A stretch of DNA of 64,000 nt from Rhodospirillales bacterium (lineage in GTDB: Bacteria; Pseudomonadota; Alphaproteobacteria; Rhodospirillales; JAPHRK01). The DNA lies in the NCBI GenBank assembly GCA_026196105.1, contig JAPHRK010000007.1, forward strand, positions 53,790 to 117,789. Reading direction: 5' to 3'. The notes below the pieces were generated by a model. That model was not told where the DNA came from, made no database searches, and was given only the letters and a program-made list of their open reading frames with translations. The position numbers were made by a program, and so were the translations under genes. Every line of letters begins with the position of its first letter. The first letter of the stretch is position 1. Positions 39,522 through 52,012 of this stretch are shown piece by piece.

Positions 39522-40421
39522 TTACTTTGCGCTTAAAGCGTTGGATACCTTAGATGCCGGAACTTTGCCGATTTCGCCGCAAATGTAAAGACCAGCTTGG
39601 ACAAGTTTCTCTAAGTCCACCCCGGTTTCAATGCCAAGACCATTGAGCATATAAACCACATCTTCCGTCGCAACATTTCCCGAAGCACCTTTGGCATAAG
39701 GACAACCGCCAAGACCCGCGACAGAACTATCAACCACAGAAATGCCAAGCTGAAGGGCTGCATAGATGTTAGCAAGAGCTTGACCATAGGTATCATGAAA
39801 ATGAACAGCCAGTTGATCCATGGGTATTACTTTGGCAACGGCTTCAAGCATGGCTTGAACTTTGCCAGGAGTCCCGACGCCAACCGTATCCCCAAGGGAT
39901 ATTTCATAACAGCCCATATCCAAAAGGGCTTTAGAAACCTCCGCCACCTTAGCTGCGTCGATATCCCCTTCATAAGGACAACCGACAACACAGGAGACAT
40001 ACCCCCGGACTTTGATGCCTTTCCCCTTAGCCGCTTCAGCTACGGGCGCAAAGCGTTCTAAGCTTTCAGAAATCGAACAGTTGATATTCTTTTGAGAGAA
40101 ACTTTCCGACGCCGCACCAAAAATTGCGACTTCTTCAGCCCCAACCGCCATGGCACCCTCAAAACCCTTCATATTTGGAGTCAAAACAGGATAGTCCACC
40201 CCTGCCTTGCGGGTAATTCCCTGCATTACCTCATCAGAAGCCGCCATTTGGGGTACCCATTTCGGCGACACGAAACTCCCTGCTTCAACAACTGGCAAGC
40301 CAGCCTCAGAGAGCATGTTAACCAACTTAATTTTGACCGCTGCTGAAACAGGAACAGCTTCATTTTGAAGGCCATCACGAGGGCCGACATCTACGATCTT
40401 AACTTTAGTTGGCAATGGCAT
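39522..40421 (-). CDS. mvaB: hydroxymethylglutaryl-CoA lyase
   Basis: Cleaves HMG-CoA to acetoacetate and acetyl-CoA, the last step specific to leucine degradation. The 299 residues have the HMGL-like TIM barrel with [12 protein letters not shown] at the N-terminus (metal-binding Asp in the barrel strand), [36 protein letters not shown] (metal histidines) and the signature [20 protein letters not shown] with the catalytic Cys. Two bases separate it from mccA. Part of the long liu-type operon. Confidence 0.95.
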
Positions 40422-40423
40422 AA

Positions 40424-42424
40424 TTACTCAGTCTCCAAGGACAACAACTCAGCCCCATCGACAACCTGTTCACCAGCCCCGTAGTTGATTTCAGCAATCA
40501 CGCCATCTGTAGGGGCAGAAATTGTATGTTCCATCTTCATAGCTTCCAGAACAAGCAGAGGGTCACCTTTAGAAACTTTATCTCCAGGTTTTACATGAAC
40601 ATCAACCACTTTACCTGGCATAGGGGCCGTAAGCGACCCTGAAGGAGCCTCATCTTCACCCGCATGAGCAGCGGCATCATAGACAGTTAGCTTATGACTA
40701 ACCCCTTGGCACATAATGGTCATATCGTCTCCGTGGCGGGCAACTGTGGCCTTAATCCGAGTACCACCGAGATCAGCAAGAAGGTCACCATTTGCGTCTT
40801 TCTCACCTCTCACCATCATGTCTCCACCTGAGAGTTCAATGAGGTATCCCTCACCACGATAATGAGCTGTGACTTCAATTTCATCCTCACCATCGATAAA
40901 GGTTATTTCTTGATGATTATCATCATTCATTCGCCAGCCACTAGTCACATTCCACGGGGAGAACGGATCATTTGAGCGCCCGGCAACTATCCGAGCTTCT
41001 TCCCTGCGCTGCAAAAGAACCTCAAGACAGGCAAGAGCTAAAGTCCGATCAGAAGCCGGTTGGCTTTCTGGGATCAGGTCGTTTTTATGGCGATCAATAA
41101 ACCGGGTATCAAGATCAACGGCTGCAAAAGCGGGGTGACCCGCAACAGCCGCTAAGAAATCAATGTTGGTCGTCATGCCGACCACTTGGTAGTCAGCCAA
41201 TGCAGAACGTAAACGGCGCAGGGCCGAATCCCGATCCACATCCCAAACGACAAGTTTGGCAATCATAGGATCGTAATAGATTGAGACTTCGTCTCCTTGG
41301 AGAACGCCTGTTTCAACCCTCACATGAGGGCTTTCAGCGGGAGGACGCAAGTGACGCAACAAACCTGTTGCCGGAAGGAAGTCATTTTGCGGGTCTTCGG
41401 CATAAAGGCGCGCTTCAAAGGAATGACCGTTGATGCTTAAATCTTCTTGACCACAGGGGAGTTCTTCACCAGCAGCCACCTTAATTTGCCACTCAACCAA
41501 ATCCTGCCCAGTGATCATCTCTGTAACAGGGTGTTCCACCTGAAGGCGGGTGTTCATTTCCATGAAATAGAAAGAACCATCTTCGTCGAGCAAAAATTCA
41601 ACAGTCCCCGCACCGACATAACCAATGGCCTTAGCTGCAGCGACTGCTGCATCACCCATTTTACGTCGGAGCTCATGGGTCATACCTGGAGCCGGGGCTT
41701 CCTCAATAACCTTTTGGTGGCGACGTTGGACTGAACAATCTCGCTCGAACAGGTGTAAAGCGTTACCTTGGCTATCGGCAAATACTTGAAGTTCGACGTG
41801 GCGCGGGCGCGTGAGGTATTTTTCAACCAACATATGATCGTCACCAAACCCTGCCATAGATTCTCGCATAGCAGCCGCCAAAGAATCATTAAAATCTTCA
41901 ACCTTCTCAACGATCCGCATGCCTTTACCGCCACCACCAGCGGAAGCTTTAAGCAAAACCGGATAACCAATTTTCTCAGCTTCTTCAGCAAGGAAGGCGG
42001 CATCTTGATTATCACCATGATAACCAGGGACCAAAGGTACTTTGGCCTTTTCCATAATTGCCTTTGCCGCACTCTTCGAGCCCATGGACTGCATGGCTGA
42101 AACAGGTGGGCCGATGAAGACAACCCCAGACTTTTCACAAGCCGCAACAAAATCAGCATTTTCAGAAAGGAAGCCATAACCGGGATGAACCGCCTGGGCA
42201 CCACTTTTCTTAACAGCTTCAATCACGGCTGCAAAATTAAGATAGCTATCTTTCGCCGCAGAGCCACCAATATGATAGGCTTCATCTGCCATCTGTACAT
42301 GAAGGGAGCCTGCATCAGCATCGGAATAAACCGCCACCGTGCCAATACCAAGACGCTTCGCTGTTTGCATCACCCGGCAAGCAATCTCGCCTCGGTTTGC
42401 TATGAGAATTTTTTCAAAATGCAT
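40424..42424 (-). CDS. mccA: methylcrotonyl-CoA carboxylase biotin-containing alpha subunit
   Basis: About 666 residues. It has a biotin carboxylase domain ([62 protein letters not shown]), a middle BT domain, and a C-terminal biotinyl domain with EAMKMEH, where the Lys is biotinylated. Genomic context with MccB, methylglutaconyl-CoA hydratase and HMG-CoA lyase identifies it as the methylcrotonyl-CoA enzyme rather than propionyl-CoA carboxylase alpha. I start at ATG 42424, nine bases after AAAGGG, which overlaps no neighbour. The pccB gene 7 kb away could in principle borrow a biotin subunit, but a separate PccA is more likely elsewhere. Confidence 0.93.
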
Positions 42425-42429
42425 ATCGA

Positions 42430-43221
42430 TTAACCCTTTATCCAATTGGGTTTTCTTTTTTCTAAGAAAGCCCCAAGGCCCTCTTGCCCTTCGTCTGAAG
42501 CCCGTTGACGAGCGATCCGGTCTGAAACATCGTCAATCATGTCGTCAGTAATTTCACCATCGACAGCAAAGACTAAATCCTTCGCTTCCCCCATGGCTTT
42601 TGGGCCATTGGTTGCCAGAATTTTGAGAATTTCATCGCCCTTGGCTTGCAACTCATCAGCCGTAACCACTTCATGAACCAGACCAAGCCATTTAGCTTCT
42701 TCAGCACCGAAACGCTCTGCACTGACAAAGTAACGCCGTGCCGCCCTAGGCCCCATAGCAGCAACCACGTAGGGGCTGATCATGGCAGGGATAATCCCAA
42801 GCTTAACTTCAGAGAGGCAGAAGCTGGCTTTTTCGGAAGCAATAACAATATCACACACCGACACCAAACCAACACCACCGCCAAAGGTTGCCCCTTGGAC
42901 CAAGCCAATCAGGGGTTTCTTCATAAAGTTCATGGTTTTAAGCAGGCCACTAAAGACCATGGCATCAGCTTTGTTCTCTTCCGGGGAGTATTTGGCGACC
43001 CGTTTCATCCAGTTAAGGTCGGCCCCTGCTGAAAAACTTTTGCCTTCAGACGCCAAGACAATAGCTCTCACATTGTCATCAGCGGACATATCATCAAAGG
43101 CGACGACTAACTCTTTGATCAATACTTCATCAAAGCAGTTGTGCACTTCAGGACGATTGAGAATGACCCAACCGATACCGTTTTCGTCTACGTTGGTTTT
43201 TAAAGGTGATTCACTCATCAT
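42430..43221 (-). CDS. liuC: methylglutaconyl-CoA hydratase (enoyl-CoA hydratase family)
   Basis: A 263-residue crotonase-fold enzyme. VILNRPEVHNCFDEVLI, LASEGKSFSAGADLNWMKR (oxyanion hole) and GGGVGLVSVCDIVIAS are typical, with CLSEVKLGIIPAMISPYV and the enoyl-CoA hydratase Glu. In the liu/mcc operon this position belongs to methylglutaconyl-CoA hydratase, which converts 3-methylglutaconyl-CoA to HMG-CoA. The first ATG shares one base with the mccB stop; a second ATG directly follows and is equally possible. Confidence 0.9.
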   Translation of the reverse strand: MMSESPLKTNVDENGIGWVILNRPEVHNCFDEVLIKELVVAFDDMSADDNVRAIVLASEGKSFSAGADLNWMKRVAKYSPEENKADAMVFSGLLKTMNFMKKPLIGLVQGATFGGGVGLVSVCDIVIASEKASFCLSEVKLGIIPAMISPYVVAAMGPRAARRYFVSAERFGAEEAKWLGLVHEVVTADELQAKGDEILKILATNGPKAMGEAKDLVFAVDGEITDDMIDDVSDRIARQRASDEGQEGLGAFLEKRKPNWIKG

Positions 43222-44834
43222 TACATCCTGAAAATGCCGAAGGGGGTAGGTTCAATAGGCGCGTTAAGACTAGCTGACAGGCCAAGACCAAGCACCATAC
43301 GGCTGTCTGCGGGATCAATGATGCCATCGTCCCAAAGACGGGAGCTGGCATAATATGGATGCCCTTCCCGCTCGTAACGATCACGAATGGGCTGTTTGTA
43401 GGCTTCTTCTTCCTCAGCGCTCCACTCTTCGCCTTTACTCTCTTTCACATCACGAGTAATGGTCGACATCACGCCAGCAGCTTGCTCACCGCCCATGACG
43501 GAAATTCGAGCATTAGGCCACATCCACAAGAAGCGCGGTGAGTAACCACGACCACACATGGAATAGTTACCAGCGCCGTAGCTGCCGCCGACAATCATGG
43601 TCAGGCGGGGGACTTTGGCACAAGCCACCGCCATCACCATTTTCGCCCCGTCTTTCGCAATACCACCAGCTTCATATTTTGAACCAACCATAAAGCCAGT
43701 GATATTTTGTAGGAAGATCAGCGGGATACCCCGTTGGGAACAAAGTTCAACAAAATGCGCCCCTTTTTGCGCGCTTTCAGAGAACAAAATACCGTTATTG
43801 GCAACGATCCCCACCGGGTAACCATAAAGGTGGGCAAAGCCACAAACCAAAGTCGTTCCATAAAGAGCTTTAAACTCATCAAATTCAGACCCATCAACAA
43901 CTCGAGCAATAATTTCACGAACATCAAAAGGCTTTTTGCTGTCGGTAGGAATTACGCCGTTGATACTGCTGAGGTCATAGAGGGGATCAACAGGCTCACG
44001 CATAGAAATATTGGGGTTTTTAACCCGGTTAAGGGTTCCCACAATTTTCCGCGCTTGAGCTAAAGCATGACCGTCATTTTGAGCATAGTAATCTGTTACA
44101 CCCGAGGTGCGACAATGGATATCTGCGCCCCCCAAGTCCTCAGCGGTCACAATTTCACCCGTCGCTGCTTTCACAAGCGGAGGACCACCAAGGAAGATCG
44201 TTCCTTGGTTACGAACAATAATACTCTCGTCAGACATAGCTGGGACATAAGCCCCACCTGCCGTACATGAGCCATGAACCACAGAGATTTGCGGGATGCC
44301 TTTGGCAGACATATTAGCTTGGTTATAGAAAATACGCCCGAAATGACCTTTGTCAGGGAACACGTCTTCTTGGCGGGGTAGGTTAGCGCCGCCTGATTCT
44401 ACTAAATAAACACAAGGTAGGTTGTTTTCTTCAGCAATTTCCTGAGCCCGAAGGTGCTTTTTCACGGTGATAGGATAGTAGCTGCCCCCTTTTACCGTTG
44501 GATCATTAGCAACGATCATGCATTCAATGCCAGAAATCCGCCCAATGCCCGTAATCACACCACCTGCAGCAACAACCCCATCATCTTCATAGAGGTCATA
44601 TCCTGCGAGCTGAGACAGCTCCAAGAAAGGTGATCCTTGGTCAAGCAAACGACGGATACGGTCACGAGGGAGAAGTTTCCCCCGTTTTATGTGACGGTCC
44701 CGGTGGCGTTCGCCACCGCCGAGTTTGATTTCAGAAATTTTTTCCCGCAGATCAGCAATCAACTTCTCCATTGCTTCCGCATTGGCTTTGAAATCAGCTG
44801 AACGAGGATTAAGTGTAGTCTTGATAACGGACAT
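43221..44834 (-). CDS. mccB: methylcrotonyl-CoA carboxylase carboxyltransferase beta subunit
   Basis: A 537-residue carboxyltransferase. [30 protein letters not shown] is characteristic of MccB, and [112 protein letters not shown] confirm it. With MccA it carboxylates 3-methylcrotonyl-CoA. It overlaps the next gene by one base and lies 12 bases after the rhodanese gene. Confidence 0.96.
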
Positions 44835-44846
44835 TTCCTTGGACCT

Positions 44847-45254
44847 TTACTTCTTCTCTTTTTTCGGACGCTCAACGATAGGCTTATTGCTTTCTTTCCA
44901 AGCCTTAAAGCCACCTTCAATATGAGCAACATTTTCTAAGCCCATATCTTGAACTGCTTTGGTCGCAAGGGCTGAGCGCCAGGCAGCGGCACAATAGAAC
45001 ACCATCTTTTTACCCGTCGCAAAAACTTCTTTATGATAAGGGCTATCGGGATCAACCCAGAATTCAAGCATGCCACGCGGTGTATGAACAGCGCCAGGGA
45101 TCATGCCTTCTCTGTCCAACTCCCGCACATCACGGATGTCAAAGATGGTGACGTTTTCGTCATTCATCATCTTTTCAGCTTCATCGACTGGGACAGTCTC
45201 AATTTCTTCCATTGCCTCTGCAACAAGAATTTTAATCCCACGTTTCATCGCCAT
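44847..45254 (-). CDS. rhodanese-like domain protein
   Basis: A 135-residue single rhodanese domain. IFDIRDVRELDREGMIPGAVHTPRGMLEFW is the typical entry. The active loop is VFYCAAAWRSALAT, with the predicted persulfide Cys. The C-terminus is basic. It sits inside the leucine operon, with the ATG one base after the HCCA isomerase stop. Its role there is unknown; sulfur transfer or detoxification is possible. A similar rhodanese gene appears in some alphaproteobacterial liu operons from memory, not verified. Confidence 0.87.
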   Translation of the reverse strand: MAMKRGIKILVAEAMEEIETVPVDEAEKMMNDENVTIFDIRDVRELDREGMIPGAVHTPRGMLEFWVDPDSPYHKEVFATGKKMVFYCAAAWRSALATKAVQDMGLENVAHIEGGFKAWKESNKPIVERPKKEKK

Positions 45255-45255
45255 T

Positions 45256-45864
45256 TTACCAACCTCCTGAGCGCATCCAGCGCTTGATCATCCACAACCG
45301 ATCTGAACCCCAGAAGGCTTCACCATCGACAATAAAGAACGGCGACCCGAACACACCTTTTTCAATGGCAGAATCGTTCACCACTTTGAATTTTTCTTTA
45401 ATTTCAGCGCTTTGCATCCCGGCGCCCATTTCTTCTGGGTCTTCCCCAATAGATTTAGCGACTTCAGCCAAAACTTCTGGGGCCATAATGTTTTTATTTT
45501 CAGCAAAATAAGCATGGAAAACCGCCTTAGCGAATTTCTTTGCTTTCACCTGATTACCATCCCGCTCCTGCAGCCAGTAAAATGCCCGTGAAGGGTTGAT
45601 AGAGAGGATGGGAAAAACATCAGGGATTTGATAGGGGACTTCCATAAAACGAGCAGTGCGTTCGGTATCCATGATGCTATATTCATGCTTCATTGGCACT
45701 TCAGTAAAGGGCTTGCCACCTGATTTTTGGAAGGCAGCGCCTAAAAACATCGGTATCCACTCGCAGGTATAGCCATATTTCTCTGCCATTTCGTCAATTT
45801 TAAATGACGCAAAATAAGCAAACGGCGAAGCGAAATCTAAGTAGAATTCTACATGTTTGTTCAC
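45256..45864 (-). CDS. 2-hydroxychromene-2-carboxylate isomerase family protein
   Basis: A 202-residue DsbA-like thioredoxin-fold protein of the kappa-GST/HCCA isomerase group. HVEFYLDFASPFAYFASFKIDEMAEKYG, PFTEVPMKHEYSIMDTERTARFMEVPY, and FGSPFFIVDGEAFWGSDRLWMIKRWM match the family. The SPFAYF motif holds the catalytic Ser that activates glutathione. Its place between the acyl-CoA dehydrogenase and rhodanese genes in the leucine operon is notable; the true substrate is unknown. It overlaps no neighbour and shares the operon strand. Confidence 0.88.
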   Translation of the reverse strand: MNKHVEFYLDFASPFAYFASFKIDEMAEKYGYTCEWIPMFLGAAFQKSGGKPFTEVPMKHEYSIMDTERTARFMEVPYQIPDVFPILSINPSRAFYWLQERDGNQVKAKKFAKAVFHAYFAENKNIMAPEVLAEVAKSIGEDPEEMGAGMQSAEIKEKFKVVNDSAIEKGVFGSPFFIVDGEAFWGSDRLWMIKRWMRSGGW

Positions 45865-45901: not shown

Positions 45902-47038
45902 TTATTCTGTTAGTACGGCCCGGCTAATGACCAGTTTTTGTACTTCACTCGTGCCTTCATATATTTGAGAGACACGAACATCCCGGTAATGTTTCTCGAC
46001 GATAAAGTCTTCAGTATAGCCATAGCCTCCATGAATTTGAATAGCATCGGAGCAAACCCGTTCTGCCATTTGTGAGGCAAAGAGTTTGGCCATGGAAGCT
46101 TCCTTAAGGCAAGGAAGACCTTCATCCCGTAAATTTGCAGCATGGTGAACCATCAAACGAGCCCCAGTGATACTGGTAGCCATTTCAGCTAGTTTAAAAG
46201 AAACCGCTTGGTGGTTAGCAATCTTTGTCCCGAAAGCTTCACGCTCCAAGGCATAGTCCCTTGCGGCAGCCATCGCGCCTTGCGCCATGCCAACACATTG
46301 TGAAGCAATCCCGATCCGTCCGCCTTCCAAGTTTGAGAGAGCAATTTTGTATCCCTGCCCTTCTTCCCCCAGCACATTGGCAGCAGGAATACGCATGTCA
46401 TCAAAAGCAATCTGCGCAGTATCTGATGCACGTTGACCCATTTTCTTTTCAATGGAAGCCACCCGGTAACCCTCGGTCGCTGTTGGAACAATAAAAGCTG
46501 AAATACCTTTTTTACCGGCTTCTGGGTCCGTGACCGCAAAGGTAATGATAATATCCCCGAGCTTGCCAGAAGTTATGAATTGCTTGGTGCCACTGAGAAT
46601 ATAATGATCACCGTCTTTCTTGGCCTTGCAGCGTAAAGCAGAGGCATCGGACCCGGCTTGGGGTTCTGTAAGGGCAAAACCACCAAGCAATTCACCACGG
46701 GCCATTGGCTTTAAAAATTCTTCTTTCTGGGCTTCATTGCCAAACTTAACAATCGGCATACAACCAACTGAGTTATGAACACTAAGAACGGTTGAAAGGG
46801 CTCCATCAGCAACGGCGATTTCTTCCAAAGCTCCGGCATAGGCCACGTGACCCACATTAGCGCCATCGAACTCTTCAGGGACGAGAGCACCCATAAGCCC
46901 AACCTCACCAAGCTCAGCAATAATCTCACGAGGGAACAAACCATCTTCTTCCCACTGGCGCACATTTGGCGTCACACGATCAGCCGCAAAGCTGCGGGCC
47001 ATATCGCGAATCAGTTGTTGCTCTTCAGTCAAGATCAT
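45902..47038 (-). CDS. acyl-CoA dehydrogenase
   Basis: A 378-residue FAD-dependent acyl-CoA dehydrogenase. GGFALTEPQAGSDASAL and SGTKQFITSG bind FAD, ERVCSDAIQIHGGYGYTEDF is the family signature, and VSQIYEGTSEVQKLVISR contains the catalytic Glu position near the C-terminus. It is distinct from the isovaleryl-CoA dehydrogenase upstream in the same operon and most resembles the short/branched-chain group. It may act on isobutyryl-CoA, 2-methylbutyryl-CoA or butyryl-CoA. AGGGCGG lies before the ATG. Confidence 0.92.
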   Translation of the reverse strand: MILTEEQQLIRDMARSFAADRVTPNVRQWEEDGLFPREIIAELGEVGLMGALVPEEFDGANVGHVAYAGALEEIAVADGALSTVLSVHNSVGCMPIVKFGNEAQKEEFLKPMARGELLGGFALTEPQAGSDASALRCKAKKDGDHYILSGTKQFITSGKLGDIIITFAVTDPEAGKKGISAFIVPTATEGYRVASIEKKMGQRASDTAQIAFDDMRIPAANVLGEEGQGYKIALSNLEGGRIGIASQCVGMAQGAMAAARDYALEREAFGTKIANHQAVSFKLAEMATSITGARLMVHHAANLRDEGLPCLKEASMAKLFASQMAERVCSDAIQIHGGYGYTEDFIVEKHYRDVRVSQIYEGTSEVQKLVISRAVLTE

Positions 47039-47054: not shown

Positions 47055-47738
47055 CTACCAAGGAATCTCTGTTCCATCATAATTATAAAAATGCCCTGTC
47101 TTAGACAGGTCTACCTCACCAATCACTTGGCGCATACCATTGACACTTTCCGGTGCATCAATCAGGCCTTGAGGACCACCCATGTCAGTTCGAACCCACC
47201 CCGGATGAAGCGCAACACAGCTTACCCCGCGACCTTTAAGGTCTATCGACAGGCTTTTATTGACTGCGTTCATGGCAGCTTTAGAGGAACGGTAGACATA
47301 AGAACCACCCATTTGATTATCGCTAATACTGCCCATTTTGGACGTCAGGGTGGCAATTATTTTCTGTTCACTCCGCGCTACTTGTTCGATAAAGCTCTCA
47401 GCCATTTTCATGGGACCATGAACGTTGGTTTGGAATTCCCTTGTCCAGGCTTCATAATTAGACTCACCAAAACCAGCGCCCTTAACCCCATAAACCCCGG
47501 CATTATTCAGCAAAACATCAATGGACTCATTTTTGAGTTCCGTGGAAAACTTTTCAATCGCCCCGTGGTCAAGAATATCAAGGAGATGAACTTCTAAGTT
47601 CCCTTCAACATCACGAAGGTTGGCTCCACCTTCCATGGTGCGACAAGTCGCGATCACCCGCCAGCCGTCAGCGGCATATTGTCGGGTGAATTCTTTTCCT
47701 AAACCCCGGCTAGCGCCAGTTATCAGAACTGTGGGCAT
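47055..47738 (-). CDS. SDR family NAD(P)-dependent oxidoreductase
   Basis: A 227-residue short-chain dehydrogenase. VLITGASRGLGKEFTRQYA binds the nucleotide, LLNNAGVYG follows, and the catalytic segment is SSKAAMNAVNKSL, preceded by a tyrosine in GGSYVYRSSKAA (YxxxK with the Ser upstream). It ends GHFYNYDGTEIPW. It starts one base after the thiolase stop. Substrate unknown; it may reduce a ketone or aldehyde arising from branched-chain breakdown. Confidence 0.9.
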   Translation of the reverse strand: MPTVLITGASRGLGKEFTRQYAADGWRVIATCRTMEGGANLRDVEGNLEVHLLDILDHGAIEKFSTELKNESIDVLLNNAGVYGVKGAGFGESNYEAWTREFQTNVHGPMKMAESFIEQVARSEQKIIATLTSKMGSISDNQMGGSYVYRSSKAAMNAVNKSLSIDLKGRGVSCVALHPGWVRTDMGGPQGLIDAPESVNGMRQVIGEVDLSKTGHFYNYDGTEIPW

Positions 47739-47739
47739 C

Positions 47740-48930
47740 TTAGTTCATAACCTCAAGAGCCACAGCTGTCGCTTCACCACCACCAATGCAGAGGCTGGCA
47801 ACGCCTTTTGTGCCACCTGTTTTATTCAAAGCATTGATCAAGGTAACGATAATACGAGAGCCGGAGGAACCAACAGGGTGGCCCAGAGCACAAGCCCCAC
47901 CAAAGATATTCACCTTATCATGGGGAATGTTCAAATCCCTCATGGCGATCATGGTAACTACAGCAAAAGCTTCGTTAACTTCATAGAGATCCACATCTTC
48001 AACTGACCAATCAACTTTATCCAAAACCTTTTGGATCGCGCCAACTGGAGCTTTAACAAAATGCTTAGGTTCGTCAGCATGAGTAGAATGGGCAAGAATT
48101 TTCGCTAGAGGTTTCAGGCCCCGTTTTTCAGCTTCAGATTGCTTCATCAGAACCAGCGCTGAGCCACCATCAGAAATGGAGCTTGAATTTGCTGCCGTTA
48201 CCGTACCGTCTTTGCGGAAGGCTGGTTTAAGGCTTGGAATTTTATCAATCCGCGCATTGCCGGGTTGTTCGTCAATTTCGATCACCGTTTCACCTCGGCG
48301 AGTTTTAACAGTTACCGGGACGATCTCTTTAGCTGAATCACCATTGGCAATCGCCGCTTGAGCCCGTTTTAGCGAGGTAATGGCGAATTCATCCTGCTCT
48401 TCCCGAGTAAACTGATAGTCCTGGGCCGCATCTTCTGCATAAGTTCCCATCAAACGACCGGGTTCATAAGCATCTTCCAAGCCATCAAGGAACATATGGT
48501 CATAAACTTTGCCATGGCCCATCCGCATGCCGCCGCGAGCATTATCCATCAGATAGGGCGCGTTGGTCATACTCTCCATGCCACCAGCAACCATCACATC
48601 GTTTGAACCCGCCATGATCGCATCGTGAGCGAGCATAGTGGCCTTCATACCTGAGCCACACATTTTGTTAACTGTGGTGCAGCCTTTATCCCAAGGAATG
48701 CCAGCACCAGACGAAGCTTGGCGAGCAGGAGCCTGACCCATGCCTGCAGGCAAAACCACACCCATGATAACTTCGTCAACATCTTCAGGCGCTACGGCGG
48801 CACGAGAAAGAGCTTCTTTAATAGCTGCCGAACCAAGTGCTGGCGCTTTAACATCAGTAAAATCGCCCTGAAAACCACCCATAGGTGTTCTGGCGGCACC
48901 AACAATTACAATAGGATCACTTGCGGTCAT
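47740..48930 (-). CDS. acetyl-CoA C-acyltransferase (thiolase)
   Basis: A 396-residue degradative/biosynthetic thiolase. TVNKMCGSGMKATMLAHDAI contains the acyl-binding Cys, VNEAFAVVTMIAM the His region, GGACALGHPVGSSGSRI the second His and ASLCIGGGEATAVALE the second Cys. In this operon it probably splits acetoacetyl-CoA made from HMG-CoA lyase product after activation. GGAG lies nine bases before ATG. 26 bases after isovaleryl-CoA dehydrogenase. Confidence 0.93.
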   Translation of the reverse strand: MTASDPIVIVGAARTPMGGFQGDFTDVKAPALGSAAIKEALSRAAVAPEDVDEVIMGVVLPAGMGQAPARQASSGAGIPWDKGCTTVNKMCGSGMKATMLAHDAIMAGSNDVMVAGGMESMTNAPYLMDNARGGMRMGHGKVYDHMFLDGLEDAYEPGRLMGTYAEDAAQDYQFTREEQDEFAITSLKRAQAAIANGDSAKEIVPVTVKTRRGETVIEIDEQPGNARIDKIPSLKPAFRKDGTVTAANSSSISDGGSALVLMKQSEAEKRGLKPLAKILAHSTHADEPKHFVKAPVGAIQKVLDKVDWSVEDVDLYEVNEAFAVVTMIAMRDLNIPHDKVNIFGGACALGHPVGSSGSRIIVTLINALNKTGGTKGVASLCIGGGEATAVALEVMN

Positions 48931-48956: not shown

Positions 48957-50129
48957 TTATACGGTTTCCAGGAAAAATTCGCGACCGATGAGCATACGAC
49001 GAATTTCACTGGTTCCGGCACCAATTTCGTAAAGCTTAGCATCACGGAGCAAACGGCCTGTAGGATATTCGTTAATATAGCCATTGCCGCCCAAGGCTTG
49101 AATTGCTTCAAGCGCCATCCAGGTTGCTTTTTCTGCTGAATAGAGAATCGCGCCAGCGGCATCTTTGCGAGTAGTTTCCCCTCGATCACAAGAAGCAGCG
49201 ACAGCATAAACATAAGCTTTGCAGGCATTCATGGTGGAATACATATCAGCAATCTTGCCCTGCATAAGCTGAAAGGTACCAATTGGCTTGCCGAATTGCT
49301 CCCGGTCATGGATGTAAGGAATGACGATATCCAAGCAGGCCATCATAATTCCCAAAGGGCCGCCAGACAAAACAGTTCGCTCATAATCAAGGCCGCTCAT
49401 AAGGATATTTACGCCACGACCGACTTCACCCATAACGTTCTCAACTGGTACCTCACAATCTTCAAATACCAGCTCACAGGTATTGGAGCCGCGCATACCT
49501 AGCTTGTCGAGTTTCTGTGCTGTAGAGAAACCCTTCATGCCTTTTTCAATAAGGAAAGCCGTCATACCCCGGGGTCCAGCATCCATATCAGTTTTGGCAT
49601 AAACCACCAAAACATCGGCATCAGGGCCGTTGGTGATCCACATTTTATTGCCGTTAAGCACATAATGGTCACCTTTAAGATCAGCCCGAAGCTTCATAGA
49701 AACAACGTCAGAACCAGCCCCTGGCTCACTCATGGCCAAAGCACCCACATGCTCACCACTGATGAGCTTTGGCAAATATTTCTGTTTTTGATCTTTGTTG
49801 GCATTGCGACGGATTTGGTTAACACAAAGATTTGAGTGCGCTCCATAGCTCAAACCAACAGAGGCCGAAGCCCGGCTAATTTCTTCAACGGCAATGGTAT
49901 GCTCAAGATAACCCATCCCGGCTCCACCATATTCTTCCTCTACCGTAATTCCTAGCAAGCCAAGGTCACCCATCTTGCGCCACATATCCATTGGGAATTC
50001 ATTTTTGCTATCAATATCAGCCGCAATAGGCTCTAGCTCATTCTGCGAGAAGCTTTTCACCGTATCGCGAATCATATCCGCAGTTTCACCAAGATTGAAA
50101 TTCAAGGAAGGATATTCAATGGCGCTCAT
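48957..50129 (-). CDS. ivd: isovaleryl-CoA dehydrogenase
   Basis: First committed step of leucine catabolism: isovaleryl-CoA to 3-methylcrotonyl-CoA. About 390 residues. [78 protein letters not shown] (with the Glu typical of isovaleryl-CoA dehydrogenases near this position), and [17 protein letters not shown] match the family. I start at ATG 50129, seven bases after GGGGA; the track adds 18 unsupported codons. The gene heads the long operon, and a 16-bp palindrome lies 86 bases upstream. Confidence 0.95.
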
Positions 50130-50214
50130 ATTTTGTCCCCGTTTCACAGCCAAAAGAACCGGCCCAACTGAGGGTCGGCTCAATTATAAATATATACTCT
50201 CCACAGCCTAATTA

Positions 50215-50230
50215 ACGTTTACGTAAACGT
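50215..50230. promoter_or_regulatory. 16-bp palindrome upstream of ivd, candidate LiuR operator
   Basis: ACGTTTACGTAAACGT is a perfect palindrome in the 112 bases between ivd and the thioesterase operon. An identical copy lies upstream of the neighbouring thioesterase operon. MerR-family LiuR regulators of leucine-degradation genes in Proteobacteria use ACGTAAACGT-rich palindromes, as I recall from comparative regulon work. No MerR gene is in the window. Confidence 0.7.
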
Positions 50231-50241
50231 CAACTAATTTT

Positions 50242-50697
50242 TTACCCCGAAACCGTTGGATTGTCCTTGATGGTCATCAGAGTAACTTGGGCCACAGCAC
50301 AGTGCTTTTCAATGCCGCCTTTAACAGCAAATACATTGGATTGGCAGACAGTCAATGTTTTCCCGGCTCGGATTACTTCACCCCGGGTAATCAAGAACTC
50401 ACCAACCGCAGGAGCCATAAGATTAACCTTAAACTCAACTGTGAGAACCCCATCCCCTTCTGCCATCAAACTAAAGGCTGCATACCCGCTGGCATTATCA
50501 GCAAGAGTGGAAACAACTCCACCATGGAAGAAGCCGTGTTGCTGGCTTAATTCCTCGCGATAGGGCAATTTTATTTCACACAACCCAGGTTGTACGTCGA
50601 CCAATTCAGCCCCAACAAAATTCATAAATCCTTGTTTATAGAAGCTGGTCTTCACTAATTTATCGTAATTTGGACTTGAAGGGGTGAAATCAGACAT
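50242..50697 (-). CDS. PaaI family hotdog-fold thioesterase
   Basis: A 151-residue hotdog thioesterase. GFMNFVGAELVDVQPGLCEIKLPY, LSQQHGFFHGGVVSTLADNASGYAA and GKTLTVCQSNVFAV match the PaaI group, with the HGG(V) active-site helix. The likely role is hydrolysis of acyl-CoA intermediates to relieve CoA trapping. A strong GGAGGTGAT precedes the ATG, which overlaps the upstream thioesterase by eight bases. It ends just before the ivd promoter region. Confidence 0.9.
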   Translation of the reverse strand: MSDFTPSSPNYDKLVKTSFYKQGFMNFVGAELVDVQPGLCEIKLPYREELSQQHGFFHGGVVSTLADNASGYAAFSLMAEGDGVLTVEFKVNLMAPAVGEFLITRGEVIRAGKTLTVCQSNVFAVKGGIEKHCAVAQVTLMTIKDNPTVSG

Positions 50698-51118
50698 TAA
50701 TCACCTCCAACAACTCATGAGCTTTATCGATAGCCTCTTGAGGGAAAGTACAGGATTTTCGATGTTCCGTATCCATATGGACTCCAACAACATCAGCCAG
50801 AGCAGCAACTTTCCCCTCTTTGCCAACTGTCATTTCGTGGGTAAACTTGATAATCTTCCCCGAAATTTCATTCAGGCGGGTATGAATTTGAACGACTTCA
50901 CCAGCTAAGACTTCAGCTTTGTAAGTAAACTTAATCTCGAGGGCCGCCATACCGCGGTTGTGTTCAGAAAAGTAGGTTTGATCCAGGCCTAATTCAGCAA
51001 AAAAAGCCCATGTAGCTTCATCGCATTTACCTGTGTACCACATGACATTCATGTGCCCCATTTGGTCACAATGCCACGGATAAACAACGCCACGATAGGT
51101 GAATAATGGCTCACTCAT
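50690..51118 (-). CDS. acyl-CoA thioesterase, 4-hydroxybenzoyl-CoA thioesterase type
   Basis: A 142-residue hotdog thioesterase. FTYRGVVYPWHCDQMGHMNVMWYTGKCDEA carries the catalytic Asp in the YPWHCDQMGHMN segment, typical of YbgC/4HBT-type enzymes. It forms a two-gene operon with the PaaI-like gene, with an eight-base overlap. RBS GGGAG six bases before ATG. A perfect copy of the ACGTTTACGTAAACGT palindrome lies 51 bases upstream, so it is probably co-regulated with leucine degradation. Confidence 0.9.
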   Translation of the reverse strand: MSEPLFTYRGVVYPWHCDQMGHMNVMWYTGKCDEATWAFFAELGLDQTYFSEHNRGMAALEIKFTYKAEVLAGEVVQIHTRLNEISGKIIKFTHEMTVGKEGKVAALADVVGVHMDTEHRKSCTFPQEAIDKAHELLEVINV

Positions 51119-51168
51119 TAAACGCTCCCTGTATATTTTTTTAGCTTTTAGCCGCTTCCCATAAACTT

Positions 51169-51184
51169 ACGTTTACGTAAACGT
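51169..51184. promoter_or_regulatory. 16-bp palindrome upstream of the thioesterase operon, candidate LiuR operator
   Basis: Second perfect copy of ACGTTTACGTAAACGT, 51 bases before the thioesterase start, within an extended near-palindrome beginning CTT and ending TAAG. Its identity to the ivd-upstream copy argues for one regulator controlling both transcripts. Confidence 0.7.
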
Positions 51185-51274
51185 TAAGTCTAGAGAAAAA
51201 TTTATCCATTTACTCCTTTAAATGAAGTTCAATAGTAAAGGAGTAGCCATATACGGGAAAAGTTAGTGGAAAAT

Positions 51275-52012
51275 TTACTTGGGCCGCATAGGGGCAGTAA
51301 GGCGTTCTAAGGTGCCGTCTTTTTTCATCTCCAAGATTGTATTGGAGAAAAGGTTTCTCAAGCGTCGTCCTCGAGGGTCATCTCTAAAAGCAAAAGAAAT
51401 GTTGTTTGCTGCAACCGGGTTTAGACGGTCATAAGTTGGCTTTTCAACATCAAGTATTTTTGAAAAGCGATAAATAGCATTAGGGAAGGCGATAAAGGCA
51501 TCAAGGCGATCACGTTCCAGCATTTGCATCAACCGCCCTACATCTTTAACCATGAAAACTTTGAGGTCTGGGTTTTTATCAATATGCTTGCCATATTTAT
51601 ACCCTCGAACCAATCCAAGCCGTTTACCTTTAAGCTCTGATAGGTTTCTAAAAGGGCGCTTTCCTTTACGTGAATATATGTAGCGATTTTGCTCCATGAC
51701 CGGCTCAGACCCGATGACAGGTATTTTAAAAGGGCCAGGCTTCATGAGTTCCAATTGCACCGGGACAAGAACATCTCCCTGCCCCGCATTAAACATAAAC
51801 AAAGCACGCTTACCGGGTAAAATTTCAACTTTTATTTTAAAATCGGCACGCTTAGCCACCTCAACAATTATCGAATGGAACATACTATCTGGTTGAGCCG
51901 TCATTAGCTGAGGAATTGATTTGCCAAGGATAGAGACCGTCTCGGCTAACGCTGCAGAGATTGAAAGGCTCATGCTGAAGAGCAATGCCAGAGCGATATT
52001 GAATAACTTCAC
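51275..52012 (-). CDS. periplasmic solute-binding-like protein
   Basis: A 245-residue exported protein. The signal peptide IALALLFSMSLSISAALA is followed by a type 2 periplasmic-binding fold of SBP_bac_3 kind, with VSILGKSIPQLMTAQPDSMFHSIIVEVAKRAD, MFNAGQGDVLVPVQLEL, LKGKRLGLVRGYKYGKHIDKNPDL and RLDAFIAFPNAIYRF. No transporter subunits adjoin. GTG start after GAGGAGGGG. Third orphan of this kind in the window. Divergent from the CoA-transferase gene with about 229 bases between. Confidence 0.75.
   Translation of the reverse strand: MKLFNIALALLFSMSLSISAALAETVSILGKSIPQLMTAQPDSMFHSIIVEVAKRADFKIKVEILPGKRALFMFNAGQGDVLVPVQLELMKPGPFKIPVIGSEPVMEQNRYIYSRKGKRPFRNLSELKGKRLGLVRGYKYGKHIDKNPDLKVFMVKDVGRLMQMLERDRLDAFIAFPNAIYRFSKILDVEKPTYDRLNPVAANNISFAFRDDPRGRRLRNLFSNTILEMKKDGTLERLTAPMRPK

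Follow-up and report, generated by a model that had tools for sequence, protein, structure and literature searches.

Paired 16-bp palindromes upstream of a thioesterase pair and the leucine-degradation operon of a Rhodospirillales genome are predicted cores of LiuR operators

LiuR is a MerR-family repressor of branched-chain amino acid degradation whose regulon has been described in Shewanella (PMC3223726), and 103 LiuR regulons have been described in the Proteobacteria (PMC5343134). In Rhodospirillum rubrum both liuR and a similarly ordered liu cluster, rru_A1940-A1948, have an 'ILV box' upstream, the authors leaving open whether this cluster order is general in alphaproteobacteria (PMC7238569). 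The Rhodospirillales locus described here shares with the known LiuR regulons a MerR-family orthologue, predicted control of the liu genes and a box at the regulator's own gene, and the targets icmF and liu fit the breakdown of branched-chain amino acids. With the R. rubrum cluster it shares thiolase, short-chain dehydrogenase (SDR) and DsbA genes mixed with liuA-E, and a LiuR box upstream. The locus differs from the known regulons in that liuR is unlinked to the liu operon in this genome and in that the predicted targets include a pair of neighbouring hotdog thioesterases as well as an unlinked thioesterase/hydratase divergon. No thioesterases were reported for the R. rubrum cluster (PMC7238569), whereas here and in many relatives thioesterases precede liuA. 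The literature search, whose scope lay outside the RegPrecise tables and Kazakov et al. 2009, returned no mention of thioesterases as LiuR regulon members and nothing relevant for the letters of the palindrome; the operators are compared below with boxes found in this analysis rather than with the published LiuR motif. LiuR regulons are already well known, and the thioesterase pair is a solid but modest extension of them.

The window, that is, the whole stretch of 64,000 nucleotides that was analysed, contains exactly two copies of the 16-bp palindrome ACGTTTACGTAAACGT, at 50215-50230 and 51169-51184. Allowing up to 3 mismatches yielded the same two copies and nothing further; with this threshold, shuffled sequences gave a mean of 0.14 matches and never reached two. 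Position 50215 lies 86 bases from the liuA start codon (ATG at 50129) and position 51169 lies 51 bases from that of TE1 (ATG at 51118). A first-pass annotation had placed the palindromes at these positions and distances upstream of two minus-strand operon starts, and both the coordinates and the spacings proved correct. The genes of the two operons are as follows.

50690-51118, minus strand: TE1, hotdog acyl-CoA thioesterase of 142 aa (PF13279, 4HBT_2; predicted catalytic Asp18 conserved)
50242-50697, minus strand: TE2, hotdog thioesterase of 151 aa (PF03061 / TIGR00369; H58, G60 and D67 conserved)
48957-50129, minus strand: liuA, isovaleryl-CoA dehydrogenase (best PDB matches 4o5m, 4kto and human 1ivh)
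47740-48930, minus strand: acetyl-CoA acetyltransferase-type thiolase of the liu operon
47055-47738, minus strand: SDR of the liu operon
45902-47038, minus strand: second acyl-CoA dehydrogenase of the liu operon
45256-45864, minus strand: DsbA-like protein, a conserved liu-operon member in relatives
44847-45254, minus strand: single-domain rhodanese, a conserved liu-operon member in several relatives
43221-44834, minus strand: liuB, methylcrotonyl-CoA carboxylase carboxyltransferase (beta) subunit (PDB 3u9r, methylcrotonyl-CoA carboxylase beta)
42430-43221, minus strand: liuC, methylglutaconyl-CoA hydratase-type enoyl-CoA hydratase
40424-42445, minus strand: liuD, methylcrotonyl-CoA carboxylase biotin-containing (alpha) subunit (BT_MCC_alpha, PF21139)
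39522-40421, minus strand: liuE, hydroxymethylglutaryl-CoA lyase (NF004283, 476 bits, above cut-off)

The ten-gene minus-strand operon downstream of the liuA-proximal site thus contains all of liuA, liuB, liuC, liuD and liuE. Many relatives keep both the DsbA-like protein and the single-domain rhodanese in this operon; we know of no role of either in leucine degradation. TE1 and TE2 overlap by 8 bp. Their predicted catalytic positions are conserved, D18 of TE1 within a W-x2-D-x2-GH-x-N motif and H58/G60/D67 in TE2, and both enzymes look active. The TE2 stop codon is located 11 bp before the liuA-proximal site, and no terminator is predicted on that strand, so transcription may read through into liuA. 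Upstream of the thioesterase operon, a 245-aa open reading frame at 51275-52012 of the window has no Pfam match and resembles a secreted solute-binding-type protein.

Across the whole 3.9-Mb genome ACGTTTACGTAAACGT occurs twice without mismatch, once with one mismatch and four times with two, and the backwards control of the palindrome at up to 1 mismatch gave 0 matches. At 2 mismatches the 16-bp box pattern is uninformative (28 matches vs 28 in the control). Near-matches at C58:30930, in C49 and at C76:176351 were dropped because they fall inside genes or have no fitting target. When 62 sites of this genome and of its relatives were aligned, conservation proved to extend past the 16 bases selected, with T at position -1 in 96%, G or T at position 0 in 89% and T at position -2 in 73%. 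The palindrome is therefore taken as the core of a longer conserved 22-bp palindromic element, TTKACGTTTACGTAAACGTMAA, which comprises three ACGT at 6-bp spacing. The two window operators predicted with this element, and the promoter that one of them covers, are:

50212-50233, no strand: predicted 22-bp LiuR operator A before liuA, palindrome core 50215-50230
51166-51187, no strand: predicted 22-bp LiuR operator B before the thioesterase pair, palindrome core 51169-51184
50205-50233, minus strand: predicted liuA promoter, TTGACG (50233-50228), 17-bp spacer, TAGGCT (50210-50205)

A genome scan with the 22-bp pattern at up to 3 mismatches yielded five meaningful sites, namely those of liuA, TE1, liuR, icmF and a divergon of enoyl-CoA hydratase and thioesterase genes, in addition to an overlapping register at icmF and one weak site on contig C55; the control pattern yielded 0 sites in the genome at the same threshold. 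The operator before icmF, which encodes a fused isobutyryl-CoA mutase, is located at C31:70689-70710, with a livH-type permease gene next. A degenerate operator at C61:23366-23387 lies between the enoyl-CoA hydratase gene and that of another hotdog thioesterase, in the unlinked divergon. The same hydratase/thioesterase divergon carries perfect palindromes in the related genomes G015, G036 and G053, and likely in G005 and G008. The gene that follows icmF encodes a branched-chain amino acid ABC permease, and many relatives carry a box at icmF.

The genome encodes seven MerR proteins. One of them, a 126-aa protein encoded at C58:8281-8661, on another contig than the liu operon, possesses a MerR-type DNA-binding domain (PF13411, E = 1.8e-19), and the box TTGACGTTTACGTTAAGGTAAA is positioned directly upstream of its gene. 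This protein is the best match in the genome for six of six gammaproteobacterial LiuR sequences, taken from Aeromonas, Vibrio, Neptunicella, Marinobacterium and Motiliproteus, with 50-57% amino acid identity, compared with 41-47% for the next paralogue. The liuR gene is located 0.4-0.5 kb upstream of liuA in the Vibrio, Marinobacterium and Alteromonadaceae loci and a few kilobases downstream of liuA/liuB in Aeromonas; the boxes at the Vibrio, Aeromonas and Marinobacterium loci are alike. The C58 protein scores far below cut-off with the NCBIfam equivalog models of metal-sensing MerR proteins (58.8 bits vs 147.4 for CueR, the others likewise). Because its best matches are LiuR proteins of liu-linked loci, the C58 protein is assigned by sequence as the LiuR orthologue, present in this genome but unlinked to its predicted targets. 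The first-pass annotation had predicted a shared LiuR-type repressor that also controls the thioesterases, and had named a genome-wide motif scan and a search for a MerR-family LiuR gene as ways to check it. The scan found the motif to be rare and non-random, the search found the orthologue with a box in its own promoter, and the prediction of a shared repressor is thereby supported.

The position of the operators relative to promoter elements points to how LiuR may act. When 48 operators of relatives were oriented by their targets, the left operator arm coincided with a -35 hexamer, TTGACG in 26 and TTTACG in 11. The sequence TAnnnT follows exactly 17 bp downstream in 30 of the 48, with no other single spacing exceeding 3 and the mirrored side giving 1. 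Operator A covers the liuA promoter's -35 hexamer together with most of its spacer. The TE1 promoter reads TTAACG-17-TTATGG, its -10 element being weak. The metal-sensing regulators MerR, CueR and ZntR resemble LiuR in their Pfam MerR_1 superfamily and in an operator at the -35 element and spacer. Promoters of metal-sensing MerR proteins have spacers of 19-20 bp, and those regulators untwist this long spacer, whereas the spacer here is 17 bp. Steric repression would thus be the simplest mechanism for LiuR at these promoters, since a 17-bp spacer needs no untwisting, which suggests a MerR-family regulator that works by plain promoter occlusion; this agrees with the description of LiuR as a repressor (PMC3223726).

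Comparison with 59 relatives of the same order associates the palindrome with LiuR. At up to 1 mismatch the palindrome is present in 19 of 21 genomes that encode LiuR and in 2 of 38 that do not (Fisher p = 2.9e-11); G021 was entered as a LiuR genome although its MerR protein is closer to the fadA-linked paralogue described below, and its omission would strengthen the result. Both exceptions have ordinary explanations. In G012 the contig ends shortly upstream of TE1, at the expected place of liuR, and the palindrome-bearing contig of G037 looks like contamination, likely from a G025-like genome with identical icmF scores. The genes flanking the palindromes in the relatives are mostly liuA, liuR, TE1, TE2, icmF and the hydratase/thioesterase pair. 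Four relatives, G049, G003, G015 and G050, share the order liuR-TE1-TE2-liuA, and G036 contains these genes with liuR placed farther upstream; in all five the corresponding promoters have boxes. G029, a genome with LiuR, keeps the order, but its sole box is a 16-bp one preceding liuR. A box precedes the TE1 orthologues of G049, G003, G015 and G036, and at least 12 relatives have one before liuA. About 19 relatives carry TE2 either close to liuA or directly upstream of it, and TE2 is near liuA also in some MAGs of Rhodospirillales and in one of Chromatiales; it does not occur near liuA in the Vibrio, Aeromonas and Alteromonadaceae loci examined. In G021, G030, G047 and G057 liuA has neither a box nor TE2. 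The R. rubrum-type liu arrangement is common among related alphaproteobacterial genomes. Relatives keep liuR-(TE1)-TE2-liuA with boxes at the corresponding promoters, which argues that the thioesterases are a lineage-specific but conserved and long-standing part of the predicted regulon; their place between liuR and liuA in relatives is independent support for this membership. The first-pass annotation had added the two thioesterases to the regulon from the shared palindrome and the liu gene content. In the genome studied here liuR has become separated from its targets. Two generic hotdog thioesterases thereby gain a pathway context, leucine degradation, through operators and gene order that are conserved in many genomes.

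The operators, their genome-wide rarity, the LiuR orthologue, the gene order and the promoter geometry, all read from sequence, indicate that the palindromes are very probably the cores of LiuR operators, through which one LiuR circuit would repress TE1-TE2, the liu operon and liuR. We infer repression from the LiuR literature together with the promoter geometry. A LiuR dimer, or two dimers on overlapping half-sites, would occupy the -35 hexamer and the spacer, and at the TE1-TE2 and liu promoters would block RNA polymerase. Build-up of a pathway intermediate, probably isovaleryl-CoA, methylcrotonyl-CoA or a similar acyl-CoA, would release LiuR, upon which the TE1-TE2 and liu transcripts would both be made; LiuR would repress its own gene via the same box. 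TE1 and TE2 would most likely hydrolyse short branched acyl-CoAs from leucine breakdown and so free CoA, substrates that are proposed from the genomic context. Extended to the Alphaproteobacteria, the same data suggest, with roughly even chances, that LiuR is a steric repressor of promoters with 17-bp spacers, acting at a 22-bp triple-ACGT operator, and that a dedicated set of hotdog thioesterases, conserved over a long time, has expanded its regulon and serves leucine degradation as a CoA-releasing valve.

A different protein may bind the palindromes. The MerR paralogue encoded on contig C43, beside fadA/fadB, shares 42% identity with LiuR, closely resembles it in the DNA-binding region and has a related box, TTGACGTTAACGTCAC, upstream of its own gene; alone or together with LiuR it might occupy the palindromes and place leucine and fatty-acid degradation under common control. 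This is very unlikely, because few of the relatives that carry the palindrome have a clear orthologue of the paralogue and several of its orthologues have no such box. The boxes also differ in form. Those of the C43 type are shorter and contain a central TTAA and two ACGT, whereas the 22-bp LiuR form has three; the paralogue and several of its orthologues have such a shorter, TTGACGTTAACGTMA-like box, distinguishable from the LiuR operator. The paralogue could cross-bind at LiuR sites, and is probably a fatty-acid regulator in its own right, with a sister operator. The box of this paralogue, whose gene lies upstream of fadA/fadB, spans C43:93493-93508 with TATGTT 17 bp on, and a comparable single box is found before an SDR gene at C34:8782.

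It is very unlikely that the liu operon alone is regulated and that the TE1 box is a relic of an ancestral liuR promoter or gene order, with the thioesterases as bystanders. Such a history would fit the location of liuR just upstream of TE1 in relatives, from which it has moved away here, and the weak -10 element of the TE1 promoter in this genome. However, the TE1 box is perfect here, and the TE1 genes of G015 and G036 each have a perfect box besides that of liuR. Moreover, a box with 1-2 mismatches precedes TE2 in G028, G046 and G038, and the unlinked thioesterase/enoyl-CoA hydratase pair carries perfect boxes in several relatives. That the palindromes arose by chance or belong to a mobile repeat, such as a piece of an inserted element, and have no regulatory role might be suspected from two identical copies 954 bp apart, but is refuted by conservation of the element at orthologous promoters across families; their flanks also differ, and copies elsewhere precede related genes.

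The operators predicted to bind LiuR extend beyond these genes in some relatives. Perfect palindromes lie between divergent genes for proteins of about 656-686 and 895-924 aa in G026, G059 and G045; the G026 pair encodes an acyl-CoA ligase and an aconitase, and the pairs of G059 and G045 were judged by size only. This suggests that the divergent pairs are further LiuR targets in that family. In the related genomes G036 and G015, LiuR palindromes are also found upstream of genes for CckA-like hybrid histidine kinases.
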